From: Burkholderiales bacterium RIFCSPHIGHO2_12_FULL_63_20
GTDB lineage: Bacteria; Pseudomonadota; Gammaproteobacteria; Burkholderiales; Burkholderiaceae_C
Direction: 5' to 3'
NCBI GenBank assembly: GCA_001770775.1
Contig: MESA01000001.1
Location: forward strand, 84,641 to 148,640
Length of the DNA: 64,000 bases
In this document: piece after piece, positions 3,988-25,533 of the stretch
Layout of the letters: every line of letters begins with the position of its first letter
How positions within the stretch are numbered: the first letter of the stretch is position 1
The notes under the pieces: model-generated
What the model was told of the DNA's origin: nothing
Database searches by the model: none
The model's input: the letters and a program-made list of their open reading frames with translations, nothing else
Position numbers and translations under genes: made by a program

Positions 3988-5514
3988 TTGTCCGTCCACC
4001 CTTTTCCCACGCCCGAGCACACCGACGTGCTGATCATCGGCGCGGGCCTGTCCGGCATCGGCGCGGCCTACTACCTGCAGCGCGACCAGCCGGGCAAGTC
4101 CTTCGTCATCCTCGAATCTCGCACCGCCTCGGGCGGCACCTGGGACCTGTTCCGCTACCCCGGCATCCGCTCCGACTCCGACCTGCACACCTTCGGCTAC
4201 GAGTTCAAGCCCTGGGTGAACGACAAGGCCATTGCCGACGGCCCCGACATCCTGGCCTACCTGCGCCAGACCGCCTCTGAAAACGGCATCGACCGCAAGA
4301 TCCGCTACCAGCGCAAGGTGAGCTCGGCCGCCTGGTCGAGCGCGGATGCCCGCTGGACGGTGCAGGTGCAACACACCGACACTGGCGAGACCCACACGAT
4401 GACCTGCAAGTGGCTGTTCTCGGCCGCCGGCTACTACCGCTACGACCAAGGCTTCACGCCGCGCTTTGAAGGCATCGAGCAGTTCAAGGGTCAGGTGATC
4501 CACCCGCAGCACTGGCCGGAGAACCTGGACTACCGCGGCAAGCGCGTGGTGGTGATCGGCTCGGGCGCCACGGCCGTGACGCTGATTCCGTCGATGGCCA
4601 AAACGGCGGGCCACGTCACCATGCTGCAGCGCACGCCCACCTATGTGATGAGCCTGCCCTCCAAAGACCCGATTGCCAACCTCGCGCGCAAGTTGATGCC
4701 GGCCGACAAGGCCTACGCGTTCGCGCGGCGCAAGAACATCGGCCTGCAACGCGGCATCTGGCGCTTTTGCCAGAAGTACCCCAACGCGGCGCGTCGTGTC
4801 ATCCGCTTCGTCAACAAGGTGTCGCTGCCCAAGGACTACCCGGTCGACGTGCACTTCAACCCGCCTTACAGCCCATGGGAGCAGCGCCTGTGCGCCGTGC
4901 CCGATGGCGATCTGTTCAAGTCCATCAAGGCGGGCAAAGCCTCGGTGGTCACCGACCACATCGACACCTTCACCGCCGGCGGCATCCGCCTCAAGTCGGG
5001 CCTGGAGCTGCCGGCCGACATCATCGTCACCGCCACCGGCCTGAACCTGCAACTGTTTGGCGGCATCGCGCTCACGGTGGACGGGGAAGCGGTGGACCTG
5101 TCCAAGAAGGTCGCCTTCAAGGGGATGATGCTCAGCGACGTGCCCAACTTCGCCTTCATCGTGGGCTACACCAACTCCTCGTGGACGCTCAAGGTGGGCC
5201 TGCTGTGCGAGCACTTCTGCCGTGTGCTGGCCCACATGGACCAGCACGGCTACGCGGTGGTGCGCCCACGCCTGCCGTCGCCCGACATGCCCACCCGCCC
5301 GCTGCTCGACTTTGGCGCGGGCTATGTGCAGCGCGCCCTGGCCAGCCTGCCTCGCCAGGGCACCAGCGGCCCCTGGGTGATGGCCATGGACCCCAACCAC
5401 GACGCCCAGGTGCTGCGCCACGGCCCGGTGGCTGACCCCTGTCTGGTGTTTGACAGCAGCCCGCACCAGCGTCATCCTGTCGCTGCACCTTCCCAGGTGG
5501 CCGTTCACGCCTGA
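3988..5514 (+). CDS. flavin-containing monooxygenase, type I Baeyer-Villiger class
   Basis: The 508-residue protein has an N-terminal FAD Rossmann motif GAGLSG (residues 18-23), the [11 protein letters not shown] stretch near 49-59, the Baeyer-Villiger fingerprint [12 protein letters not shown] (166-177) and a second Rossmann motif IGSGATA near 188-194 for NADPH. This class inserts oxygen next to ketones or oxidises related substrates using FAD, NADPH and O2. The start is a TTG at 3988 with AAGGAG five bases upstream, a good ribosome site. The gene is followed after 14 bases by a PF10118-type protein, so the two are probably one operon. The substrate is not visible from the sequence. Confidence 0.88.
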
Positions 5515-5528
5515 AGCAGAAGTTCACC

Positions 5529-6395
5529 ATGACCCACCCCGACATCGTTCCGCGCGAAAAGCTCTCCTTTGGTTTCGACCACGAGGTGCCCAAGTACTGG
5601 CTGGGTGGTGACCCGTTCAAGACCCGCTTTTGCGACGCGATGTCCACCATCTTCCCGGAAGGTGAGCGCTTCTTCATCTCCTGCGTGCGAGACTTCCGCG
5701 ACCAGGTCACCGACCCGCAACTGCTGGCCGAGATCAAGGACTTCATCCGCCAGGAAGGTCAGCACGGCATCGTCCACAGCCAGTTCAACGCGCACCTGGC
5801 CAAGCAGGGCATCCGCGTGGCGCGGCTGGAAGGCATCATGAAATGGTGGCTCTTTGATGTGCTGCGCAAGTACATGCCCAAAAAGCACACCCTCGCACTG
5901 ACGGCCGCCTCCGAGCACCTCACCGCCATCATGGCCGAGGCCCTGTTCACGCGCAAAGCCGTGATGGGCGAAGCCGACCCGCGCATGTTCGCGATGTATG
6001 CCTGGCACGCCATGGAAGAAATGGAGCACAAGGCCGTGGCCTTCGACGTGATGCAGAAGGTGGCCAAGGTCTGGTACCCACGCCGCGTGCTGGCGTTGGT
6101 CGAAACGACGCTGGCCTTCAACTTCAACGTGCTGTCCTTCGCCAACGCCATGCTGCGCCGCGATGGTTTCAGCCGCTGGCAACGCGTCAAGTTGTTTGCC
6201 AAGGGCATGGGCTGGGTCTATGGCCCAGGCGGCATGTTCATGGGCTGCTGGCGCTCTTACCTGCGCTACTACAAGCCCGGCTTCCACCCTTGGCAAGAGC
6301 CGCCCACGCCCATGTACCAAGTGTGGGTGGACGCCTTCAACCGCTCCGGTGACCCGGTGGAAGCGGGCCGCGTGGTGTACGCCGCCGCGGTCTGA
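5529..6395 (+). CDS. PF10118-type predicted metal-dependent hydrolase
   Basis: The 288-residue protein matches my knowledge of the PF10118 (predicted metal-dependent hydrolase) family. It is helical and carries acidic/histidine clusters that could bind metal: FIRQEGQH near 77-84, then AASEHL and HAMEEMEHKA near 160-169, resembling a ferritin-like di-metal arrangement. Biochemical function of the family is poorly known. It lies 14 bases after the Baeyer-Villiger-type monooxygenase, a pairing that suggests the same oxidative pathway (for example lipid, alkane or terpenoid oxidation); this is inference. Codon use matches its neighbours. Confidence 0.8.
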   Translation: MTHPDIVPREKLSFGFDHEVPKYWLGGDPFKTRFCDAMSTIFPEGERFFISCVRDFRDQVTDPQLLAEIKDFIRQEGQHGIVHSQFNAHLAKQGIRVARLEGIMKWWLFDVLRKYMPKKHTLALTAASEHLTAIMAEALFTRKAVMGEADPRMFAMYAWHAMEEMEHKAVAFDVMQKVAKVWYPRRVLALVETTLAFNFNVLSFANAMLRRDGFSRWQRVKLFAKGMGWVYGPGGMFMGCWRSYLRYYKPGFHPWQEPPTPMYQVWVDAFNRSGDPVEAGRVVYAAAV

Positions 6396-11765: not shown

Positions 11766-12812
11766 ATGCACATCGCTGGCGTCGCTTGCTCCTTCCCGGA
11801 TCGCACCGTTTCAAACGCTGAGATTCTGAAAATCTTTTCAGACCACAGCAAGGAAGGGTATGACGGCGATTTTGAAAAGGCCGCGCAAACGGTTGAGCAC
11901 TACCTCAACTACATTGGCTCGGTCAACCGGCGCTGGCTGGCCAAAGATGAGCAGGGTTTCACGTACACCGAGCGCGCCATCCATGAAGCGCTGGACAAAG
12001 CCGGCCTGGGCAAGAACGACATCGATTTGCTGATTCATGCCAGCGTCGACAAGGGCGTTCTGGAGCCGGGCATGGCCTTCTATGTGGCCAAGGCCATGGG
12101 CATGGACCGCACCCAGTGCTTCGATGTCACCGAAGCGTGTGGCAGCTGGACACGTGCCACGCAGATTGCGCAGTCCTTCCTTGAAACAGGTCTGTTCAAG
12201 AACATCCTCATCGTCACGGCTGAGTATGCCGTCCACGAAGGCCAGCCCGGTCACAAGAGTTTCAAGATCAACGAATTTTCGGATCTGGAATGGTCATTTG
12301 CCAGCTACACCGTTGGCGAGGGCTCGACCGCCACGGTGTTGACCCGTGATGCCGACAAACCCTGGACCTACACCAACCGCACCTTCACGCAGTTTGCAGA
12401 TTTGTGCGTCGTCCCGGTCCGCGAGGACGACGTTCAAACCATGCGCTTCAACGATCTGTCATTGGCAGGCAAGGGTGGTTTGCGCTTCATGTCCTACGGC
12501 AAAAAAATGCAGGACAACACCATCGATGATCTCGAAGACATGATGCGAACGAACCCCATTGCCGTCGATGGCGTGGACCTGTTCATTCCCCACACCAATA
12601 CCCTGACCGCGTGGCGTGACATCGAGAAACGGCTGGGCAAGAAGATTCCTTATATCTTCATGCTGCCTGAGTACGGCAACTTGGTCACCAATTCGGTTCC
12701 TGCTGCCTTGGCGACGGCCGAGAAGGACGGTCGCCTCCAGCGAGGCCATCAGGTGTCGGCCATGATGACCGCCGCCGGCATGTCCTACACCTGCTTCAAC
12801 TGGGTGTACTGA
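11766..12812 (+). CDS. beta-ketoacyl synthase III family (FabH/OleA-like) enzyme
   Basis: The 348-residue thiolase-fold protein carries a full KSIII-type triad: C125 in VTEACGSW, H276 in FIPHTNT and N305 in EYGNLVTNS. The C-terminal part (NSVPAALATAEKDGRLQRGHQ) resembles FabH and OleA. It would join an acyl thioester to a second acyl or malonyl unit by Claisen condensation. It opens an operon that also has OleC-like and OleD-like genes, so the OleA-type role (condensing two acyl-CoAs to a beta-keto acid) is the leading idea, though the middle of the protein departs from the OleA proteins I know. ATG 11766 begins directly with the fold's first strand. A FabH-like starter role is the alternative. 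Confidence 0.85.
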   Translation: MHIAGVACSFPDRTVSNAEILKIFSDHSKEGYDGDFEKAAQTVEHYLNYIGSVNRRWLAKDEQGFTYTERAIHEALDKAGLGKNDIDLLIHASVDKGVLEPGMAFYVAKAMGMDRTQCFDVTEACGSWTRATQIAQSFLETGLFKNILIVTAEYAVHEGQPGHKSFKINEFSDLEWSFASYTVGEGSTATVLTRDADKPWTYTNRTFTQFADLCVVPVREDDVQTMRFNDLSLAGKGGLRFMSYGKKMQDNTIDDLEDMMRTNPIAVDGVDLFIPHTNTLTAWRDIEKRLGKKIPYIFMLPEYGNLVTNSVPAALATAEKDGRLQRGHQVSAMMTAAGMSYTCFNWVY

Positions 12813-12814
12813 CC

Positions 12815-13852
12815 ATGGCAACGGATTGGTCGGGGCGCAAGTATCGCGTCCTCAAGGCGCTGGGCGAAGACATCGACATGATCATTGGCGTGGTTCAACC
12901 CGCCCATGCCGACGTCAGCTGGTTTTTGCACTCGCACGAGAAAGACGACGGCATCGGTGCGCTCGTCAAGGTGCTGGCCTCGTTCGGCATTGTCATCCCG
13001 CCCAAAGTGAACCCGAGCCGGCTGCCCAAGCCAGGCTTGTGGGGGCGACTCAAGGCCTTGAAACTGCACCTGCACAACAGCCGTGCGGTGGACTACCCCT
13101 GGCGTCGCCCTGCCCTGGGTGCCGGCGCCGTGGTCGAGCCCTGCTTTGTGTACTACCTGATGCCCGAGGCAGACAGCGCCTGCGTCAAGCAGCACTCCCG
13201 CAGTCTGGAGGTGGGTGAAACCTCGTTCTTCCTGTCCTGCCTGGACAAAGTCTGCCGTGATCGTTACCTCACTCAGCCCAGTGAGCGCGTCTGGATGATG
13301 CCGCACGACTTTCGGCGCTCACTGGGCATCACTCGCCAATCGGGCAACTGCACAGCACCGGTATCGGTCCGCCTGTCAGGGCAACCCAGTGCGCGGGACA
13401 TCTTTGTGCAGCTCAAAGGCCTATACCAACAAGGCATCTTGTGGGGGTCGTGGTCGTACACCAACTTCGCACGCGTCCTCACCGATTCGATGATCAAGAA
13501 GGCGTACACCCGCTTGAAGAACCGTGCCTGGTTTGGCGTGTACGCCAACATGAGCGCGTGGCAGACGCCTGCCGGGGCCCCGGCCGCATTGGCGGGGGCC
13601 TGGCTCTTGAGCGCACCGCCGGTCAGTGCGGTGTGTCCGATCACGGCCGGCAGCATCACCTGGGAAGGGCGCACCGCCTTCACCTTGCAGTTGCACCCAT
13701 CGCTGAACGCCGACCGCCAGGCCGCGATGGACCTCATGTCGCTGTGGGTGGCTTACATCTGCGACGCCGCAGGTGTCACGCATGGCGAGATCACCCCCCA
13801 CGTCATCACCATGCAGGACATGCGACGCCAAGCCAAGCGCCTGGACGTTTGA
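12815..13852 (+). CDS. CAT-fold-like acyltransferase/condensation protein (tentative)
   Basis: The 345-residue protein is not one I can name. The best clue is SHEKDDG at residues 40-46, which fits the HHxxxDG active-site motif of the chloramphenicol-acetyltransferase superfamily (condensation domains, WS/DGAT, Pap acyltransferases) with the first His replaced by Ser and the catalytic His (H41), Asp (D45) and Gly kept. The order, with the motif near the N-terminus and a GSITWEG strand late in the chain, is compatible with a single CAT-like domain pair. It lies 2 bases after the ketoacyl synthase gene, so it most likely esterifies or amidates the operon's product. This is inference from one motif and context. 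Confidence 0.6.
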   Translation: MATDWSGRKYRVLKALGEDIDMIIGVVQPAHADVSWFLHSHEKDDGIGALVKVLASFGIVIPPKVNPSRLPKPGLWGRLKALKLHLHNSRAVDYPWRRPALGAGAVVEPCFVYYLMPEADSACVKQHSRSLEVGETSFFLSCLDKVCRDRYLTQPSERVWMMPHDFRRSLGITRQSGNCTAPVSVRLSGQPSARDIFVQLKGLYQQGILWGSWSYTNFARVLTDSMIKKAYTRLKNRAWFGVYANMSAWQTPAGAPAALAGAWLLSAPPVSAVCPITAGSITWEGRTAFTLQLHPSLNADRQAAMDLMSLWVAYICDAAGVTHGEITPHVITMQDMRRQAKRLDV

Positions 13853-13878
13853 CACGCCCATCACCTCAGGAGTTTTTC

Positions 13879-14172
13879 ATGGATTCGACCCGTAGCCTGA
13901 TGATCATGAAGATCATCGTGGGGCTGAGCTGGCTGTTGGGCATTGCCGAACTGATTCACCCCGTCACACCGATTCCGCCGTCGTGGCTGATGGCGGTGGT
14001 GGGCTTGTCCTTGGTGGCGCACGCCGGCCAGAGCGTGTACTTCGTTCGCAAGTTTGGCGCCAGGGTGGACTCGGTCTGGCCCCATGTGCTGCAGATCATG
14101 GTGTTCGGGATGCCGCACATCGTGGCGTTTCAAAAGAACCTTCCCCCAGTGAACGCCCAGCTGGCGCGATGA
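13879..14172 (+). CDS. small membrane protein, possibly DUF1145-like
   Basis: This 97-residue protein has three hydrophobic stretches (about 8-25, 34-54 and 67-85) and begins at an ATG with CAGGAG seven bases upstream. The pattern of an HP motif after helix 1, a helix with a conserved His before the middle loop, and FGMPHI near the end is reminiscent of DUF1145 (YhhL) proteins, but I hold that loosely. It is fully embedded in the biosynthetic operon: its stop overlaps the AMP-ligase start (ATGA at 14169). A role in holding the lipid-modifying enzymes at the membrane or in product handling is guesswork. Confidence 0.65.
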   Translation: MDSTRSLMIMKIIVGLSWLLGIAELIHPVTPIPPSWLMAVVGLSLVAHAGQSVYFVRKFGARVDSVWPHVLQIMVFGMPHIVAFQKNLPPVNAQLAR

Positions 14173-15848
14173 CCGTGGACGGCTTGTTCAACGTCTTCTC
14201 GCTGCTGCAAGACCATGCCGAACGCTCGCCTCGCAGGCTGGCCCTCGCGCAGGCCACGGGGCGCGACAAGGCGGGTCGCTTTGTGTACGCAACGCGCACC
14301 TATGGGCAACTGCAGGCCGACATCGAAGGCTTGACGCGCGGCCTGCGTGCCATCGGCATCACCAAAGGCAGCAAGACCCTGGTGCTGGTCAAACCCGATC
14401 TGAATCTGCCGGTCATCGTCTTTTCGCTGTTCAAGATCGGTGCGGTGCCGGTCATCATCGATCCGGCGATGGGCTTGACGCGCCTGCTGGCCTGCATCCG
14501 CAAGGTCGAGCCCGATGCCGTGATCGCGCTGCCGCTGATTCACGCGCTCAGGCCGTTTCTGGGCGACGTGTTTCGCACCGTCAAGACCTTCATCAGCAAC
14601 GGTTCGGCATGGATGCCCGCCACCCACCGGCTGGCCCATCTGCGTCATGCAAGCGAGGGCGACGCCCACACCGAGCCGACGCTGGGGACGGATCTGGCCG
14701 CCATCTTCTTCACCAGCGGCAGCACCGGCACGCCCAAGGGGGTGGAGGTCAGACACCGCAACCTGGGCGCGCAGATCGCGCACTTCGGCGCCCTGTTCCC
14801 GGTCGATCCGCAGGACGTGGAGCTGGCGGCCTTTCCGGTGGCCACCTTGATCGGGCCCTGTCTGGGGCAGACCAGTGTGATCCCGGACATGGGCTCCCTG
14901 CATCCGGGGCGTTGCAACCCCCACAACCTGGTGCAAACCATTGAAGACTTCGGCATCACGTCGGGGTTTGCCTCGCCGATCGTGTGGGAGCGCTTGAGCC
15001 GCCATTGCGTGGCCCAGGGCGTTCGCCTGTCCACGATCAAGCGTGCCTTCAGTGGCGGTGCGCCCATCCCGTACACGATGCTCGCGCGCCTGGCACACTT
15101 GCTGCCCCATGGCGTCATGGTCACCCCCTACGGGGCCACCGAGGTCACACCGATCAGCAGCATCGATGCGCGCGAGATCGAGCGTGACACCGCGGCCCTG
15201 TCGGCCAGCGGTCATGGCACCTGCGTCGGGCGCGTGGTGCCGGGGCTGACCGTCAAGATCATCGAGATCGACGCGCAACGCTTGCCACATTGGCAGGATG
15301 TCACGCTCCTGCCAGACGGGGTCATTGGCGAGATCGTGGTGCGCGGTGCCTTGGTGTCGCAGGCGTATCACAACGACCCTGAGAACACCGCGCTGGCCAA
15401 GATCCAGGCCGATGACGGCGACCAGTTGGATCCATTTTGGCACCGCACGGGGGACGCCGGCTACTTCGATGCCCAGGGGCGCTTGTGGTGCTGTGGTCGG
15501 ATCAAACACATCGTCCACGCAGACGGGCAGCGCTATTTTTCCGTGCCTGCCGAAGAAATCTTGAATGCCGAGCTGGAGGTCTGGCGCTCGGCCTTGGTCG
15601 AGGTGCAGGTCAATGGGCAAGCCCAGCTGTGCATGGTGGTGGAGTTCTACCCCGAACATCTGGCCGGCATCCATGCCGCCCGGATACAGGCCTTCAAGGA
15701 CAAGCTCCATGGCTTTGGGTTTCCGGTGCGCCATGTGCTGACCTACCCGCACGCCTTCCCGGTCGACCGTCGTCACAACTCGAAGATTGAGCGGCACATT
15801 TTGGCCCGATGGGCGCAGTTGCAGTTGGACAAAGGGGTACCGTCATGA
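14169..15848 (+). CDS. OleC-like AMP-dependent ligase / beta-lactone synthetase homologue
   Basis: The 559-residue ANL-superfamily enzyme has the P-loop FFTSGSTGTPKG (about 180-191), TPYGATE (319-325), HRTGDAGYFD, and the C-terminal NSKIERHIL with the usual lysine. Several stretches are those I know from OleC rather than from ordinary acyl-CoA ligases: the HPGRCNPHNLVQ segment, FGITSGFASP, AFSGGAPIP, and the C-terminal CCGRIKHIV. OleC adenylates a 2-alkyl-3-hydroxy acid and closes it to a beta-lactone. The gene overlaps its neighbours on both sides by 4 bases, with the OleD-like reductase next. Absence of an OleB lyase in the operon suggests the lactone, not an olefin, would be the product; this is inference. 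Confidence 0.85.
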   Translation: MTVDGLFNVFSLLQDHAERSPRRLALAQATGRDKAGRFVYATRTYGQLQADIEGLTRGLRAIGITKGSKTLVLVKPDLNLPVIVFSLFKIGAVPVIIDPAMGLTRLLACIRKVEPDAVIALPLIHALRPFLGDVFRTVKTFISNGSAWMPATHRLAHLRHASEGDAHTEPTLGTDLAAIFFTSGSTGTPKGVEVRHRNLGAQIAHFGALFPVDPQDVELAAFPVATLIGPCLGQTSVIPDMGSLHPGRCNPHNLVQTIEDFGITSGFASPIVWERLSRHCVAQGVRLSTIKRAFSGGAPIPYTMLARLAHLLPHGVMVTPYGATEVTPISSIDAREIERDTAALSASGHGTCVGRVVPGLTVKIIEIDAQRLPHWQDVTLLPDGVIGEIVVRGALVSQAYHNDPENTALAKIQADDGDQLDPFWHRTGDAGYFDAQGRLWCCGRIKHIVHADGQRYFSVPAEEILNAELEVWRSALVEVQVNGQAQLCMVVEFYPEHLAGIHAARIQAFKDKLHGFGFPVRHVLTYPHAFPVDRRHNSKIERHILARWAQLQLDKGVPS

Positions 15849-16846
15849 AGACGTTGGTGACCGGCGGGGGCGGTTTTCTGGGCCGCTACATCGTGGAGGG
15901 GCTGCTGGCCCAAGGACATGAGGTGGCCGTGCTGTGCCGAGGGAGCCATCCCGCATTGCACCCCCTGGGCGTTCGGCTCATCCAGGCAGACTTGGGTGAT
16001 CGCGAGGCCGTGAAAGCGGCCTGCCAGGGCATCGAGCGGGTGTTCCATGTGGCCTCCAAAACCGGACCGACCGGGCGCTACGCGGACTTTCACCGCACCA
16101 ATGTGGTCGGCACACGAAACGTGATCGATGCCTGTCTCGCGCACGGCGTCCACAAGCTGGTCTACACCAGCTCACCCAGCGTGCTGGTGGGCTTTGACGA
16201 CCTCTCTGGGGTGGATGAACGAGCCCCCTTGCCCACCCGCATCATCAGCGCCTATCAGCACACCAAGATGCTGGCTGAGCAAATGGTGTTGGCGGCCCAC
16301 AACCCGCATGGACTGGTCACAACGGCCCTGCGGCCTCATGCCATCTGGGGTCCGCGTGACACGCAGCTCTTCGCACTGCTGATTCAGCGACACCGCGCGG
16401 GCCAGCTGATCCGGGTAGGCAGCGGCCGCAACAAGATCAGCGTCAGCTATGTCGAGAACGCGGCAGCGGCGCATCTGCAGGCGGCCGATTCGACGCAAGT
16501 GGGTGGCAAGGTTTACTTCGTCAACGAACCCGAGCCCGTCGAGATGTGGCCCTGGATTGATGGCCTGTTTGCGTCCATCGGCTTGCCGCCGGTCACCCGG
16601 CAGGTGTCCTACCGTGCCGCCTACGTCTTGGGCGCGGTGTCAGAGGCCGTCTCGGCAGTGATGCCCTGGTTGAGTGAGCCCAAGCTGACACGGCTCCTGG
16701 CCGCCGTATGCGCCAAAGACCATTACTTCGACATCCGTGCGGCCCAGCGTGATTTTGGCCTGACGTCACCCGTGCCCATGGACGAAGCTCAGCGCCGCTT
16801 CGCGCACTACTTTCAGTCGGTGGCGCACGCGGGGGCGGGCACATGA
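15845..16846 (+). CDS. OleD-like NAD(P)-dependent 2-alkyl-3-oxoalkanoate reductase homologue
   Basis: The 333-residue extended-SDR protein begins with GGGGFLG (7-13), has a YQHTK active-site pair Y137/K141, and carries LVYTSSPSV and LRPHAIWGPRD, all closely like the OleD/3-beta-HSD group. OleD reduces the beta-keto group made by OleA before OleC closes the ring. It overlaps the ligase gene upstream and the SDR gene downstream by 4 bases, so the three proteins are made together. The C-terminal half has the hydrophobic YRAAYVLGAVSEAVSAV segment typical of the group. Other 3-beta-HSD-like reductases are the alternative reading. Confidence 0.85.
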   Translation: MKTLVTGGGGFLGRYIVEGLLAQGHEVAVLCRGSHPALHPLGVRLIQADLGDREAVKAACQGIERVFHVASKTGPTGRYADFHRTNVVGTRNVIDACLAHGVHKLVYTSSPSVLVGFDDLSGVDERAPLPTRIISAYQHTKMLAEQMVLAAHNPHGLVTTALRPHAIWGPRDTQLFALLIQRHRAGQLIRVGSGRNKISVSYVENAAAAHLQAADSTQVGGKVYFVNEPEPVEMWPWIDGLFASIGLPPVTRQVSYRAAYVLGAVSEAVSAVMPWLSEPKLTRLLAAVCAKDHYFDIRAAQRDFGLTSPVPMDEAQRRFAHYFQSVAHAGAGT

Positions 16847-17691
16847 GCGAGCGCCCATCGATGCTGATCACCGGCGCCTCGTCCGGCATCGGTCTGGCCC
16901 TGGCGCTGCATTTCGAGCGGCAGGGGTTTGAGGTCTTTGCCGGGGTACGTCGTCGTCAGGATGCGCAGGCCTTGCTCGCGCAATCGGTGGGCCACCTGGT
17001 CCCCTTGATCCTGGACGTGACACGCCCAGACACGATTGAAGCGGCGCTGGCCGTGGTGCAAGCGCACACGCAAGGGCAGTTGAACGCCTTGGTCAACAAC
17101 GCAGGCGTGGCCTTCAGTGGCCCGCTGGAGACCACACCGCAAGCCGATGTCGAGGCGCTGTTTCAGGTCAATGTGCTGGGCACCTTTGCCGTCACACGCG
17201 CTTTCCTGCCCTTGATCCGGCAGGCTCGGGGGCGCATCGTCAATGTCAGCTCCATTTCGGGGCGGTTTGCGGCGCCCGGATTGACCGCCTACTCGGCCTC
17301 CAAGTTCGCGGTGGAGGGGCTCACCGAATCCTTGCGGGTGGAGTTGGCGCCCTTTGGCGTGCGGGTGGCGTCTGTGGCACCGGGCAAGATCGACACACCG
17401 ATCTGGTCCAAGGCGCTGAACACCAGCGCCGCCATCAACAACGCGCAGCCAACGCAATTGCAATTGCTGTACCGCCCGCTGGTGGCCTTTTATGAACGCT
17501 ACGCTGACGAGGAGCGCGGCACCCCGCTCAACGAGGTCGTCGCCGCCGTGGCGCACGCCGTGTGCGACAAGGCCCCACGTGCCCGCTATGTCATCGGCCG
17601 CACCGCGAAAGCCCGTGTCTGGCTCAACCGCCTCCCCGTTCGACTGCGTGATCGGCTGATTCTGGGCAAGATTTTTGGGCATGCGCGTTGA
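16843..17691 (+). CDS. short-chain dehydrogenase/reductase
   Basis: A classical SDR of 282 residues: cofactor motif TGASSGIG (10-17), NNAG (85-88), and catalytic Y150/K154 in YSASK. The residues after GASSGIG and the early Arg-rich RRRQD loop suggest NADP(H), but this is only a lean. It overlaps the OleD-like gene by 4 bases and ends the operon. It would oxidise or reduce a hydroxyl or keto group on the operon's lipid product or a precursor. The substrate is not visible. Confidence 0.88.
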   Translation: MSERPSMLITGASSGIGLALALHFERQGFEVFAGVRRRQDAQALLAQSVGHLVPLILDVTRPDTIEAALAVVQAHTQGQLNALVNNAGVAFSGPLETTPQADVEALFQVNVLGTFAVTRAFLPLIRQARGRIVNVSSISGRFAAPGLTAYSASKFAVEGLTESLRVELAPFGVRVASVAPGKIDTPIWSKALNTSAAINNAQPTQLQLLYRPLVAFYERYADEERGTPLNEVVAAVAHAVCDKAPRARYVIGRTAKARVWLNRLPVRLRDRLILGKIFGHAR

Positions 17692-19352: not shown

Positions 19353-22016
<2,664 letters not shown>

Positions 22017-22037
22017 CTAATTTTGCGATGGCTTACG

Positions 22038-23159
22038 TTAAATGCGCATCGGCATCACGACGTACTTGAAGCCTTCGTACTCGGGGTTGGTGATCAGCGC
22101 CGAGCTGTTGGCATCCTGCAGCGAGACGGTCACCATGTCCTGGCTCATGTTGGCCAGCACGTCCATCAGGTAGCCCACGTTGAAGCCGATTTCGAAGCTG
22201 TCGCCACCGTAGTCGATTTCAAGTTCTTCCTTGGCCTCTTCCTGCTCGGCGTTGCTCGAGGCAATGCCCATCAGGCCCGGCGCGAAGGATAAACGCACGC
22301 CCTTGAACTTCTCGCTCGTCAAGATGGCGGCACGTTGCAGCGAGGCCAGCAAGGTGGTGCGGCCCAACGTGATGTGGTGCTTGTGGTTCTTGGGGATGAC
22401 GCGGTTGTAGTCGGGGAACTTGCCCTCGACCAGCTTGGTCACGAATTCCAGGCCGCCAAAGCTGAACTTGGCCTGGTTGCCGGCAAAGCGCATCTCGATG
22501 AGCTGCTCTTCCTCGCTCTTGCTGTCGTCTTTCAGCAGACGCTGCAGCTCCAGCACTGTCTTGCGCGGCAGGATGACTTCCTGCTTGGGCATCTCGACGT
22601 CCAGCGTGGCCTGCGACAGGGCGAGGCGGTGGCCGTCGGTGGCCACCAGCGTCAGCGTCTTGCCTTCGGCCACGAACAGGATGCCGTTGAGGTAGTAGCG
22701 GATGTCATGCACCGCCATGGCGAAGTGCACCTGGCTGATGAGCAGCTTCAGCGTCTTTTGCGGCACGTTGAACGCTGGGCCGAAGTCGGCCGCTTCCTGC
22801 ACCAGCGGAAAGTCTTCGGCCGGCAGGCTTTGCAGCGTGAAGCGGCTCTTGCCGCCTTGCAGCGTCAGCTTGGTCTGGTTGGCCGTGAGCGAGACGATCT
22901 GGTCCGAGGGCAGGCTTTTGAGGATGTCACCCAGCTTCTTGGCGCCGACGGTGATAGCGTAGTTGCCTTCATCGCCGTCGAGTTGTGCCGTGGTGCGAAT
23001 CTGGATTTCCAGGTCGCTGGTGATGAGCTCCAGCTCGGCGCCCTGTTTGCGAAGCAGCACATTGGCCAGGATGGGCAGGGTGTGACGGCGTTCCACGATC
23101 CCGGCCACCGATTGCAGGGCGGCAAGAACTTTTTCCTGAGCTGCTTTCAACACAATCAT
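22038..23159 (-). CDS. dnaN: DNA polymerase III beta sliding clamp
   Basis: The 373-residue protein has the three clamp domains of the usual length, beginning MIVLKAAQEKVLAALQSV and ending in YVVMPMRI, the end typical of DnaN. HDIRYYLNGI and ATDGHRLAL are conserved clamp motifs. It holds the polymerase on DNA. It lies downstream of the origin, with dnaA on the far side. Because dnaA has its own terminator at 23907-23936, the dnaN promoter should lie within the origin region; I did not find a clear -35/-10 pair. Confidence 0.98.
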   Translation of the reverse strand: MIVLKAAQEKVLAALQSVAGIVERRHTLPILANVLLRKQGAELELITSDLEIQIRTTAQLDGDEGNYAITVGAKKLGDILKSLPSDQIVSLTANQTKLTLQGGKSRFTLQSLPAEDFPLVQEAADFGPAFNVPQKTLKLLISQVHFAMAVHDIRYYLNGILFVAEGKTLTLVATDGHRLALSQATLDVEMPKQEVILPRKTVLELQRLLKDDSKSEEEQLIEMRFAGNQAKFSFGGLEFVTKLVEGKFPDYNRVIPKNHKHHITLGRTTLLASLQRAAILTSEKFKGVRLSFAPGLMGIASSNAEQEEAKEELEIDYGGDSFEIGFNVGYLMDVLANMSQDMVTVSLQDANSSALITNPEYEGFKYVVMPMRI

Positions 23160-23264
23160 CTGAAGTCTTTCCCGTTAGACCTTCAATCGTACCTCGGTTC
23201 GCACTGCCTCCGTGGACCAAGCATTCCCGCAGTGACCAGATTGCGCACTTGGGCGTCACGCGGA

Positions 23265-23535
23265 CCGTCAGGCTGTTTTTTTGTGCGGCGCGGGCGCTGC
23301 ACTGTATTCATAACTCTTCTTACCTTTTTAATTCGTCGTAGTAGTAGAGGGCCCCTCTGACTGTGGACAAGTCATTTTTGTCTTTTCAGATCAAGAACAT
23401 GCGTTGACCTCAACGGTGTGGAAGCAGGGGTTGATTGCCGCAGCGCGAAACCCCAACAACTTTGAGAACAAGGCCACGCCTGTGGACAAGTGATGACTTG
23501 TTCGGCTTTTGTCCACAACCTTGTTGTCTTGACAG
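23265..23535 (+). repeat. origin repeat unit 1 (tandem duplication)
   Basis: First of two diverged copies of a module about 271 bases long. Elements in order: T-run, CACTGT(A)TTCATAAC, TAGTAGTAG at 23339-23347, DnaA boxes at 23362, 23481 and 23509 (last inverted), and a closing TTGACAG. Each element recurs in unit 2 at an offset of 367 bases up to the first DnaA box and 368 bases after it, one single-base indel explaining the change. Confidence 0.85.
23339..23370 (+). promoter_or_regulatory. DnaA-trio plus DnaA box, copy 1 (basal unwinding element)
   Basis: TAGTAGTAG (23339-23347), 14 bases of G/C-rich spacer, then DnaA box TGTGGACAA (23362-23370). A T/C-rich, A/T-rich stretch lies on the other side of the trios. 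This matches the known bacterial basal unwinding system, in which DnaA spreads from the box over the trios onto one strand. Confidence 0.75.
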
Positions 23536-23631
23536 TCGCCGACTGTCTGTGTGTCAACGCCTTAACCGCAGAAAACAGAACAGCGGATCTGACAACTCAC
23601 TGGCTTTGACAAAGATGTCGGTCATGAGGGG

Positions 23632-23903
23632 GCGGGTGGGCGTTTTTTTTGAAGCCTTGACCGCGCCACTGTCTTCATAACCATCTTCATCTTTCTAACT
23701 GGTGGTAGTAGTAGAGAGGCCTTCAAACTGTGCACAAGTCGTTTTTTGTCTTGTCAGATCAAGGACTTGGCATCAGGACAAGCGTGTGGAGGCCAGGGCC
23801 CTTCGTGAGAGGGGCCAACGACAACAACTCCTGAAAAACCGCCTGGCCTGTGGATAAGCCCTCACTTGTTCGAAAGTTGCCCACAGACTTGTTGGCTTGA
23901 CAG
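23632..23903 (+). repeat. origin repeat unit 2 (tandem duplication)
   Basis: Second copy of the origin module. It has the same order: T-run, CACTGTCTTCATAAC, TAGTAGTAG at 23706-23714, DnaA boxes at 23729, 23849 and 23877 (last inverted), closing TTGACAG. Box 2 of this copy is a perfect consensus, while box 1 is TGTGCACAA, so the copies have diverged at the boxes themselves. Confidence 0.85.
23706..23737 (+). promoter_or_regulatory. DnaA-trio plus DnaA box, copy 2 (basal unwinding element)
   Basis: TAGTAGTAG (23706-23714), again exactly 14 bases of spacer, then the box TGTGCACAA (23729-23737). The equal spacing in both copies argues that both modules are, or recently were, under selection. 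Confidence 0.7.
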
Positions 23904-23906
23904 GGC

Positions 23907-23936
23907 GAAAAAAAAGAGGCCGAAGCCTCTGATTTT
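23907..23936 (-). terminator. rho-independent terminator of dnaA
   Basis: On the minus strand, AGAGGC - TTCG - GCCTCT is followed by a run of T8. It lies 29 bases past the dnaA stop and inside the right edge of the origin region, so dnaA transcripts should not run into the origin. Confidence 0.9.
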
Positions 23937-23965
23937 TGGGGTGCCTTGCCTGCCTGTGGGCGGGT

Positions 23966-25471
23966 TCAACCTTTGAGCGTCTGCTCCAGCACGTGCAGTT
24001 GCTGGTTGAGCTCGGAATCCTTGCCGCGCTCGCCCCCGATCTTGCGCACGGCGTGCAGCACGGTGGTGTGGTCGCGGCCCCCAAACAGCTCGCCAATCTC
24101 GGGCAGGCTCTTTTGGGTCAGCTCCTTGGCCAGGTACATGGCGATCTGGCGCGGGCGGGCAATCGAGGCCGGGCGCTTTTTCGAATACATGTCCGCGACC
24201 TTGATCTTGTAGAAGTCGGCCACGGTCTTTTGGATGTTTTCCACCGAGATCTGACGGTTCTGGATCGACAGCAGGTCCTTGAGGGCCTCCCGCGCCAGGT
24301 TGATCGTGATCTCCTTGTGGCTGAACTTCGCAAAGGCCAGCACCTTGCGCAGCGCGCCTTCGAGCTCGCGCACGTTGGCACGCACGTTCTTGGCCACGAA
24401 AAAAGCCACGTCTTCGGGCATCTCGATCGCTTCTTGTGCGGCCTTCTTGATCAGAATGGCCACACGCATTTCCAGCTCGGGCGGCTCAATCGCCACGGTC
24501 AGGCCGGCGTCAAAGCGCGAGGTCAGGCGTTCATCGATGTTGGCCAGGCCCTTGGGATAGGTGTCGCTGGTCATGATGATGTGCGCTTTTTTGGCCAGCA
24601 GGGCCTCGAACGCATTGAAAAACTCTTCCTGCGTGCGGTCCTTGCCGGCGAAGAACTGCACATCGTCGATCAGCAGCAGATCGAGCTGGTGGTACTTGGC
24701 CTTGAGTTCGTCAAAGGTCTTGCGCTGGTAGTTCTTGACCACATCCGAGATGAACTGCTCGGCGTGCAGGTAAAGGATGCGTGCATCGGGCTTGTCGGCC
24801 AGCAGTGCATTGCCCACTGCATTCATCAAGTGGGTTTTGCCCAGACCCACGCCGCCGTAAATGAACAGCGGGTTGTACATCTGGCCGGGGGCGCCGGCCA
24901 CGTGCAGTGCGGCGGTGCGGGCCATCTGGTTGGCGCGACCGGGCACAAGGTTGTCAAAGGTCAGCGCCGGATTGAGGCCCATGACCTGAGGTTGTGCCCG
25001 ATTGGTGCGCGCAGGCTCCGAGGTCTGTGGATAGGCCGCGCCCGCCGGACCCTGGTTGGCGGCCTGAGCCTGGGCCATGTGCGATGGCAAGGCCGCACCC
25101 GACTGGGCATTGGAGGGCAGGGCGCGACCGGGCATGACCATGCCGGGGCGCAGGCCACCGGCCGGTGCGGCCATGCGAGGCGCCAGGGCCAGCTCCAGCC
25201 GGATCTCGCCGGCTTGCAAATCACGCAGGATGACTTCCAGGCGCGCGCTGTACTGCGTGCGGATCCAGTCGAGCATGAAGCGGTTGGCCACGCGCACCGA
25301 CACCAGGGTGGTGCCCTCGGCCTGGCTCACTTCGGCCGGCGGCAGGGGGCGGATCCAGGTGTTGAACTGCTGTTCAGGCAGCTCGGTGGCCAGGCGCTCA
25401 CAGGTCCGTTGCCACAGGGTGGCGGGGTCGTTGGGGCTCTGGCCGGCGGCGGTCAATTCGGCGGCACTCAT
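23966..25471 (-). CDS. dnaA: chromosomal replication initiator DnaA
   Basis: The 501-residue protein has the N-terminal DnaB-contact domain ([18 protein letters not shown]), a Pro/Ala-rich variable linker (about 95-165), the AAA+ domain with Walker [10 protein letters not shown] and Walker [10 protein letters not shown], and the DNA-binding domain with the signature [11 protein letters not shown]. It binds the boxes in the adjacent origin and melts it. ATG 25471 gives the usual start; an upstream ATG at 25519 would add 16 residues. A DnaA box touches the start codon region (25473-25481) and a perfect one lies upstream (25534-25542), consistent with self-repression. Confidence 0.98.
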
Positions 25472-25472
25472 G

Positions 25473-25481
25473 TGTGGACAA
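25473..25481 (-). promoter_or_regulatory. DnaA box directly upstream of the dnaA start codon
   Basis: TTGTCCACA on the dnaA strand ends one base before the ATG, where a ribosome site would be expected; no Shine-Dalgarno is visible there. DnaA bound here could block transcription of its own gene. Confidence 0.6.
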
Positions 25482-25533
25482 GTCTGTCTTCGGGGAGCGA
25501 ATTCTAAGCGCATGAGCACAGGTCATTGACAGG

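Follow-up and report, generated by a model that had tools for sequence, protein, structure and literature searches.

What would a bacterium make with an operon that holds relatives of OleC and OleD, has no OleB and carries an acyltransferase-like protein in addition? Ole-type chemistry is known to end in olefins or beta-lactones. The question is raised by six genes located between positions 11766 and 17691 of a 64,000-nucleotide stretch of the genome of Burkholderiales bacterium RIFCSPHIGHO2_12_FULL_63_20 (G000:C1:84641-148640, hereafter referred to as the window, to which all positions without a locus name refer). The assembly has a length of 3.69 Mb in 48 contigs and is 97.49% complete, and its genus was inferred to be Aquabacterium. 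These genes constitute a real operon, as the initial annotation had observed: coordinates and junctions agreed with its description of six genes on one strand, with 2 bases between genes 1 and 2, 26 bases between genes 2 and 3 (with CAGGAG 5' of the ATG), and a 4-base overlap at each of the three junctions between the last four genes. We suggest, with a probability of roughly 0.45, that the operon specifies a head-to-head lipid pathway of the Ole type, ending before the olefin, in which the activated product is acylated.

The full gene set is rare but conserved, and was found with identical gene order in nine genomes from three lineages: that of the window, six others from its genus, a metagenome-assembled genome (MAG) of Thalassolituus (locus L043) and the Pseudomonadales MAG DT_90 (locus L101). 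Order and direction were retained in all six other carriers of the genus, allowing for two assemblies broken at contig ends; in G898 the operon is divided between two contigs (L032 and L033), and in G904 the break lies inside the ketosynthase gene, the ligase frame also being incomplete (L031). A chance arrangement is very unlikely, because six other members of the genus and two MAGs of Gammaproteobacteria have conserved this gene order. The identity of the six genus carriers to the window was 74-76% for the ketosynthase and 61-66% for the CAT-like protein (complete copies for both), 52-57% for the small membrane protein, 64-67% for the ligase, 72-74% for the OleD-like enzyme and 58-62% for the terminal short-chain dehydrogenase/reductase (SDR); the corresponding values for the L101 copy, in gene order, were 54, 37, 40, 37, 59 and 42%. 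Within the genus, the CAT-like protein (P0002) was present in seven of 42 genomes; it was found in one of the 150 family genomes drawn and one of 398 phylum genomes (profile search at 1e-20), the single genome being the window's own in both cases. P0002 matched no plasmid record, and the searches of viral contigs with P0002 and the ligase (P0004) yielded nothing useful. The codon-position G+C content of the operon resembled that of neighbouring genes, except for the ketosynthase, in which it was lower at positions 1 (0.544) and 3 (0.748).

The first gene (P0001, 11766..12812, + strand) encodes a ketosynthase III-fold condensing enzyme (Pfam ACP_syn_III_C, 5e-14) with C125, H276 and N305 at the positions initially reported and, in addition, an OleA-type E100-P101 pair. 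According to PMC7064751, all but two of the aligned OleA proteins have Glu117 followed by Pro, and this residue is required for Claisen condensation. When a collection of 84,980 species genomes was scanned for two peptide patterns taken from the ketosynthase alignment, 48 loci were confirmed (L039-L086, among them L043), distributed over seven phyla (taxa from record titles); these counts are lower bounds, because the scan missed the L101 ketosynthase. E100-P101, C125, H276 and N305 were conserved in all 49 subfamily members examined (47 of the 48 scan loci, L101 and the window; L052, with a truncated ketosynthase, was left out), and both the genome's own FabH and the two PDB ketosynthases compared have Phe-Pro in place of Glu-Pro. 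With the ketosynthase as query, the only other match in the window's genome (threshold 0.001) was a weak one to FabH. For comparison, we used the OleABCD reference loci L017, L018, L135 and L136, together with three Nocardia loci (L137-L139) that we take to be of the nlt type from their gene order. In a tree with 15 subfamily rows, the subfamily formed one clade (support 99/98) apart from the four OleA and two NltA rows; NltB was a very long branch of unsure placement. The Glu-Pro pair of OleA is common to both groups, but by phylogeny the ketosynthase belongs to a deep subfamily apart from OleA and is not an OleA; the OleA-like character first assigned to this protein is not supported in that form.

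The neighbours of this subfamily were recorded up to 10 kb from each scan locus, or less at contig ends. Six of the 48 loci were operon loci, including the truncated L052. A ligase resembling fatty acyl-AMP ligases (FAAL) was present at 21 loci, directly upstream and on the same strand at 19, directly downstream at L076 and about 5 kb away at L072; MMPL transporters were found at four loci and LolA-like proteins at three, and two calls of each of these three kinds were checked with Pfam. Other neighbours among L039-L086 included sulfotransferases, MMPL/LolA-like proteins and glycosyltransferases. The DT_90 genome contains a second subfamily ketosynthase with 45% identity (L047 10001-14284), which precedes LolA-like and MMPL genes and is located apart from the six-gene copy.

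The fourth gene (P0004, 14169..15848, + strand) encodes an AMP-forming ligase, which passed the NF006754 (PRK09274) model with 540 bits against a cut-off of 478 and scored 429 and 396 bits on two OleC models with cut-offs of 900 and 850, respectively. We rejected the use of missed NCBIfam cut-offs as an argument against membership of the OleC or OleD families, because syntenic OleC and OleD controls miss them too: two syntenic OleC proteins obtained 850 (L017) and 689 bits (L135) on the OleC model of Xanthomonas type, both below 900, and a Nocardia nlt-type ligase and the Thalassolituus and DT_90 ligases obtained 501, 453 and 255 bits. Among the columns fixed in five operon rows and in eight OleC/nlt-type rows, 12 held the same residue and two differed, and none of the 12 shared residues occurred in five further ligases encoded in the genome, whose C-terminal ends are partly cut off in the alignment. 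The ligase trees, with an outgroup drawn from own-genome ligases (L002-L008 without L004 and L006), with L031 and L032 excluded as in the other trees, and with L101 also excluded from the second on account of its long branch, separated the operon ligases as one group from ten OleC, nlt-type and ungrouped relatives as the other (97/93). In approximately unbiased (AU) tests, a single clade of operon and ole ligases was weakly rejected (p=0.040) and one of operon and nlt ligases more firmly so (p=0.006). Scores and shared columns bear out the initial assignment to the OleC family, but the ligase is, on its sequence, a lineage of its own beside the clade that unites the olefin and nlt-type ligases.

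A similar result was obtained for the fifth gene (P0005, 15845..16846, + strand), encoding a 2-alkyl-3-oxoalkanoate reductase-like enzyme with Y137-xxx-K141. On NF042422 it scored 324 bits, and syntenic OleD proteins scored 332 (L136) and 444 bits (L135), the cut-off of 580 being missed by all three. In a tree for which a root on the nlt rows was chosen, and from which L017 was excluded (its reductase was not picked out), the operon rows formed one clade (99/99) beside the OleD rows. Judged from these data, the reductase is a member of the OleD family, as proposed, but with a lineage of its own. The initial annotation had considered that the ligase and the reductase might fall outside the OleC and OleD clades, and about half of this was found: both form their own clades, and the ligase lies outside OleC plus nlt.

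These enzymes bear on the possibility that no head-to-head chemistry takes place, and that the ketosynthase condenses or transfers acyl groups on an unrelated substrate while the ligase only activates a fatty acid, as a CoA ester or adenylate, for an ester or amide lipid. Such an interpretation would fit a ketosynthase that is far from OleA and FAAL-linked at 21 of 48 scan loci, and a ligase that passes the cut-off of the general NCBI 'fatty acid CoA ligase family', but it would leave aside the Glu-Pro pair found in 49 of 49 subfamily members and the presence of an OleD-family reductase, a family whose known substrates, by model name, are 2-alkyl-3-keto acids. We regard it as unlikely.

OleB was searched for with a reference protein from a syntenic oleABCD locus (L092/L135), which has an aspartate in the place of the nucleophile. 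No relative was detected at 1e-15 in the window's whole genome, extending to the genome the absence initially described for the operon; an assembly completeness of 97.49% leaves room for an OleB gene in a gap. A true OleB would be expected to show up in this search, because the query recovered another syntenic OleB at 46% identity (E 3e-90) and even, with 21% identity (E 4e-12), an unrelated Nocardia hydrolase. Matches at 1e-15 were obtained in 18 of 42 genus genomes, with 25-36% identity among the matches listed (31% for the best by E-value) and 26-31% in the six other carriers; we read these, without a tree, as ordinary alpha/beta hydrolases. An alpha/beta hydrolase (P0007) encoded upstream of the operon in relatives was considered as a hidden OleB and rejected: it has a serine nucleophile (GNSMGG) rather than the OleB aspartate (VHDWGG), is without a match at 1e-60 in the genome of the window and is present in four of 35 non-carriers.

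The combination of OleC and OleD relatives without OleB raises the possibility that the end product is a free beta-lactone of the lipstatin or nocardiolactone style, with the acyltransferase decorating a side-chain hydroxyl. PMC7064751 takes oleACD clusters without oleB as likely beta-lactone clusters, and the ligase shares columns with OleC and the nlt type. Nevertheless, this ligase falls outside the Nocardia nlt-type clade (AU p=0.006), and two of the three nlt-type loci have two ketosynthase genes before the ligase (the third has one, on the other strand), whereas the operon has a single ketosynthase, from another subfamily. A free beta-lactone appears rather unlikely. Of the beta-lactone or hydroxy-lipid product initially envisaged, the general chemistry is still plausible, but the beta-lactone itself is made less certain by a ligase that branches outside OleC plus nlt.

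The acylation step of the pathway that we favour would fall to the second gene (P0002, 12815..13852, + strand; 345 amino acids). The SHEKDDG motif on which its initial description as CAT-type was based is present, with HxxxDG beginning at H41, and H41, D45 and G46 were invariant in the eight rows of the P0002 alignment (A7). P0002 had no Pfam or NCBIfam match at 0.1, no PHROG match and no credible match among PDB sequences (best E 0.068), and apparently represents an unnamed family. Its AlphaFold model resembled the fold of the CAT/condensation-domain superfamily, in keeping with that description: Foldseek matched it to 112 PDB chains at E≤0.001, including condensation domains, wax ester synthase and PapA5, and nearly all of the 50 matches listed were, by name, condensation-type domains or acyltransferases of the same superfamily. 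Among 390 genomes of the Thalassolituus order, a P0002 profile found relatives, mostly distant, in 30; HxxxDG was kept in eight of the nine relatives read and was HxxxDA in the other. At one of these loci (L127), the P0002 relative adjoins a relative of the operon SDR (243 bits), and no relative of the ketosynthase, the ligase or OleD was found in the 19 kb; this one locus hints that the acyltransferase and the SDR might act together. At three others (L129, L130 and L131), distant P0002 relatives were directly beside an RND transporter pair and acyltransferase-like genes (by eye), in a recurring order.

Two further genes complete the set. The third (P0003, 13879..14172, + strand) encodes a membrane protein of 97 amino acids with three long predicted helices (model pLDDT, the predicted local distance difference test, 64) and of no known family, having no Pfam match and one NCBIfam match far below its cut-off; it is conserved in the six other genus genomes, in L043 and in L101. 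The sixth (P0006, 16843..17691, + strand) encodes a classical SDR (PF00106, 1e-51; Y150-xxx-K154).

From families and motifs, on which every chemical step proposed here is based, the favoured pathway would begin with the joining of two acyl thioesters by the ketosynthase in a non-decarboxylative Claisen condensation, with C125 as the nucleophile and E100 as the base. The OleD-like enzyme would convert the resulting 2-alkyl-3-keto acid into a 2-alkyl-3-hydroxy acid. In the third and least certain step, the OleC-like ligase would adenylate the hydroxy acid and then either close the beta-lactone or pass on the acyl adenylate. Without OleB, decarboxylation to the olefin would not follow; instead, the HxxxDG protein would make an ester, by acylating the hydroxyl or by moving the 2-alkyl-3-hydroxyacyl group, in its activated form, to an acceptor that the SDR may have prepared. 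The enzyme set would be kept at the membrane by the small membrane protein. The two weakest points of this scheme are the product of the ligase and the substrate of the acyltransferase.

Several observations weigh against this pathway. The ketosynthase is far from OleA (108 bits on PRK09258, for a cut-off of 285 and a syntenic OleA score of 487), and its substrates may differ, because 21 of the 42 non-operon scan loci are FAAL-linked and none has the OleC/OleD/CAT set. Closure of the beta-lactone is not secured, because the ligase branches outside the OleC and nlt-type clade. The L101 ligase (L101 11067-12647) has an altered P-loop (TSGSTDLPKPVE) in an operon otherwise kept, and may have changed or lost its activity, because this ATP-binding loop is altered and the branch is long. 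The role of P0002 as an acyltransferase is probable from fold and motif, and its 50 listed structure matches had query TM-scores of 0.38-0.52 with large root-mean-square deviations, for a model built from five sequences with a mean pLDDT of 71.7 (predicted TM-score, pTM, 0.79); the top match is, by its name only, an AzeD dehydratase.

A more specific form of the pathway would be a Gram-negative route to mycolate-like lipids. The non-OleA ketosynthase would supply a 2-alkyl-3-keto acid, the OleD- and OleC-type enzymes would turn it into a 2-alkyl-3-hydroxyacyl group activated as the beta-lactone or the adenylate, and the new HxxxDG transferase would use this activated form as the donor for an ester lipid, the ketosynthase then belonging to a second, often FAAL-linked, head-to-head condensing family. 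We consider this version rather unlikely and put it forward as a speculation.

In all six other genus carriers, a flavin monooxygenase and a serine hydrolase, P0007, are encoded upstream of the operon (L027 11255-15365; L028-L030, L032 and L052, the last assigned to the G904 contig because the hydrolase has the same contig place), and in the Thalassolituus genome the genes after the operon encode an MMPL-family transporter (Pfam), a TetR-like protein (by eye) and a flavin monooxygenase that shares 41% identity with that of the genus carriers. Together with these neighbours, the operon might form a catabolic unit, degrading or remodelling long-chain ketones or alkane-derived lipids. This is very improbable: the number of SDRs between monooxygenase and hydrolase varies (four carriers have two, L028 has one and L029 has none), a monooxygenase of this kind was not detected next to the Pseudomonadales copy, equally similar monooxygenases (41-42%) occur elsewhere in the window's genome, and the pairing of ketosynthase and ligase looks synthetic. 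The upstream cluster often adjoins the operon without being an essential part of it, because the hydrolase is present in six of seven carriers and four of 35 non-carriers and has no match at 1e-60 in the genome of the window.

The window itself contains a flavin monooxygenase gene (PF00743) followed by one for a PF10118 predicted metal-dependent hydrolase (3988-6395); this monooxygenase (~4015-5514) was rejected as a partner of the operon, being 27% identical to that of the relatives. On the other side, large minus-strand open reading frames at 19353-25519 were read by eye, not from a family search, as gyrB, dnaN and dnaA, and on this reading the operon would sit near the replication origin.

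A literature search by title and start of abstract, with most subscription papers outside its coverage, found no published description of the six-gene set, in agreement with the initial annotation, which is a weak indication of novelty; passages of PMC10262491 and PMC11837247 likewise do not describe it. The Glu-Pro subfamily outside OleA makes it directly testable who else performs non-decarboxylative head-to-head condensation, and the detection of a beta-lactone or a mycolate-like lipid would be of interest to both natural-product and membrane biologists.

Among known systems, the oleACD beta-lactone clusters (lst and nlt) have in common with the operon a ligase and a reductase without a close OleB match. 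The operon has a single ketosynthase instead of the LstA/LstB pair, a ketosynthase heterodimer according to PMC7064751. The nlt-type clusters differ from it in their ligase clade, outside which the operon ligase lies, and P0002 had no match in L137-L139 at 1e-3. With the FAAL-linked ketosynthase III subfamily of cyanobacteria, Nocardia, Streptomyces and others, the operon shares its first gene, with invariant Glu-Pro and C-H-N residues, but those loci have a FAAL partner rather than OleC and OleD, and no P0002 relative was found nearby. P0002 resembles the HxxxDG superfamily (CAT, nonribosomal peptide synthetase condensation domains, wax ester synthases and PapA5) in active-site motif and modelled fold, but not in matching any Pfam or NCBIfam family at 0.1. 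Finally, the operon is like OleABCD in its OleC- and OleD-family enzymes and in the Glu-Pro and C-H-N residues of its ketosynthase, and differs in lacking OleB, in having a ketosynthase of another subfamily and a ligase and reductase of their own lineages, and in adding an acyltransferase-like protein, an SDR and a membrane protein. Because a conserved operon keeps the OleC- and OleD-type steps without OleB and adds an unnamed acyltransferase-like protein, a third fate is suggested for the head-to-head intermediate, and the operon may make a lipid not yet described.

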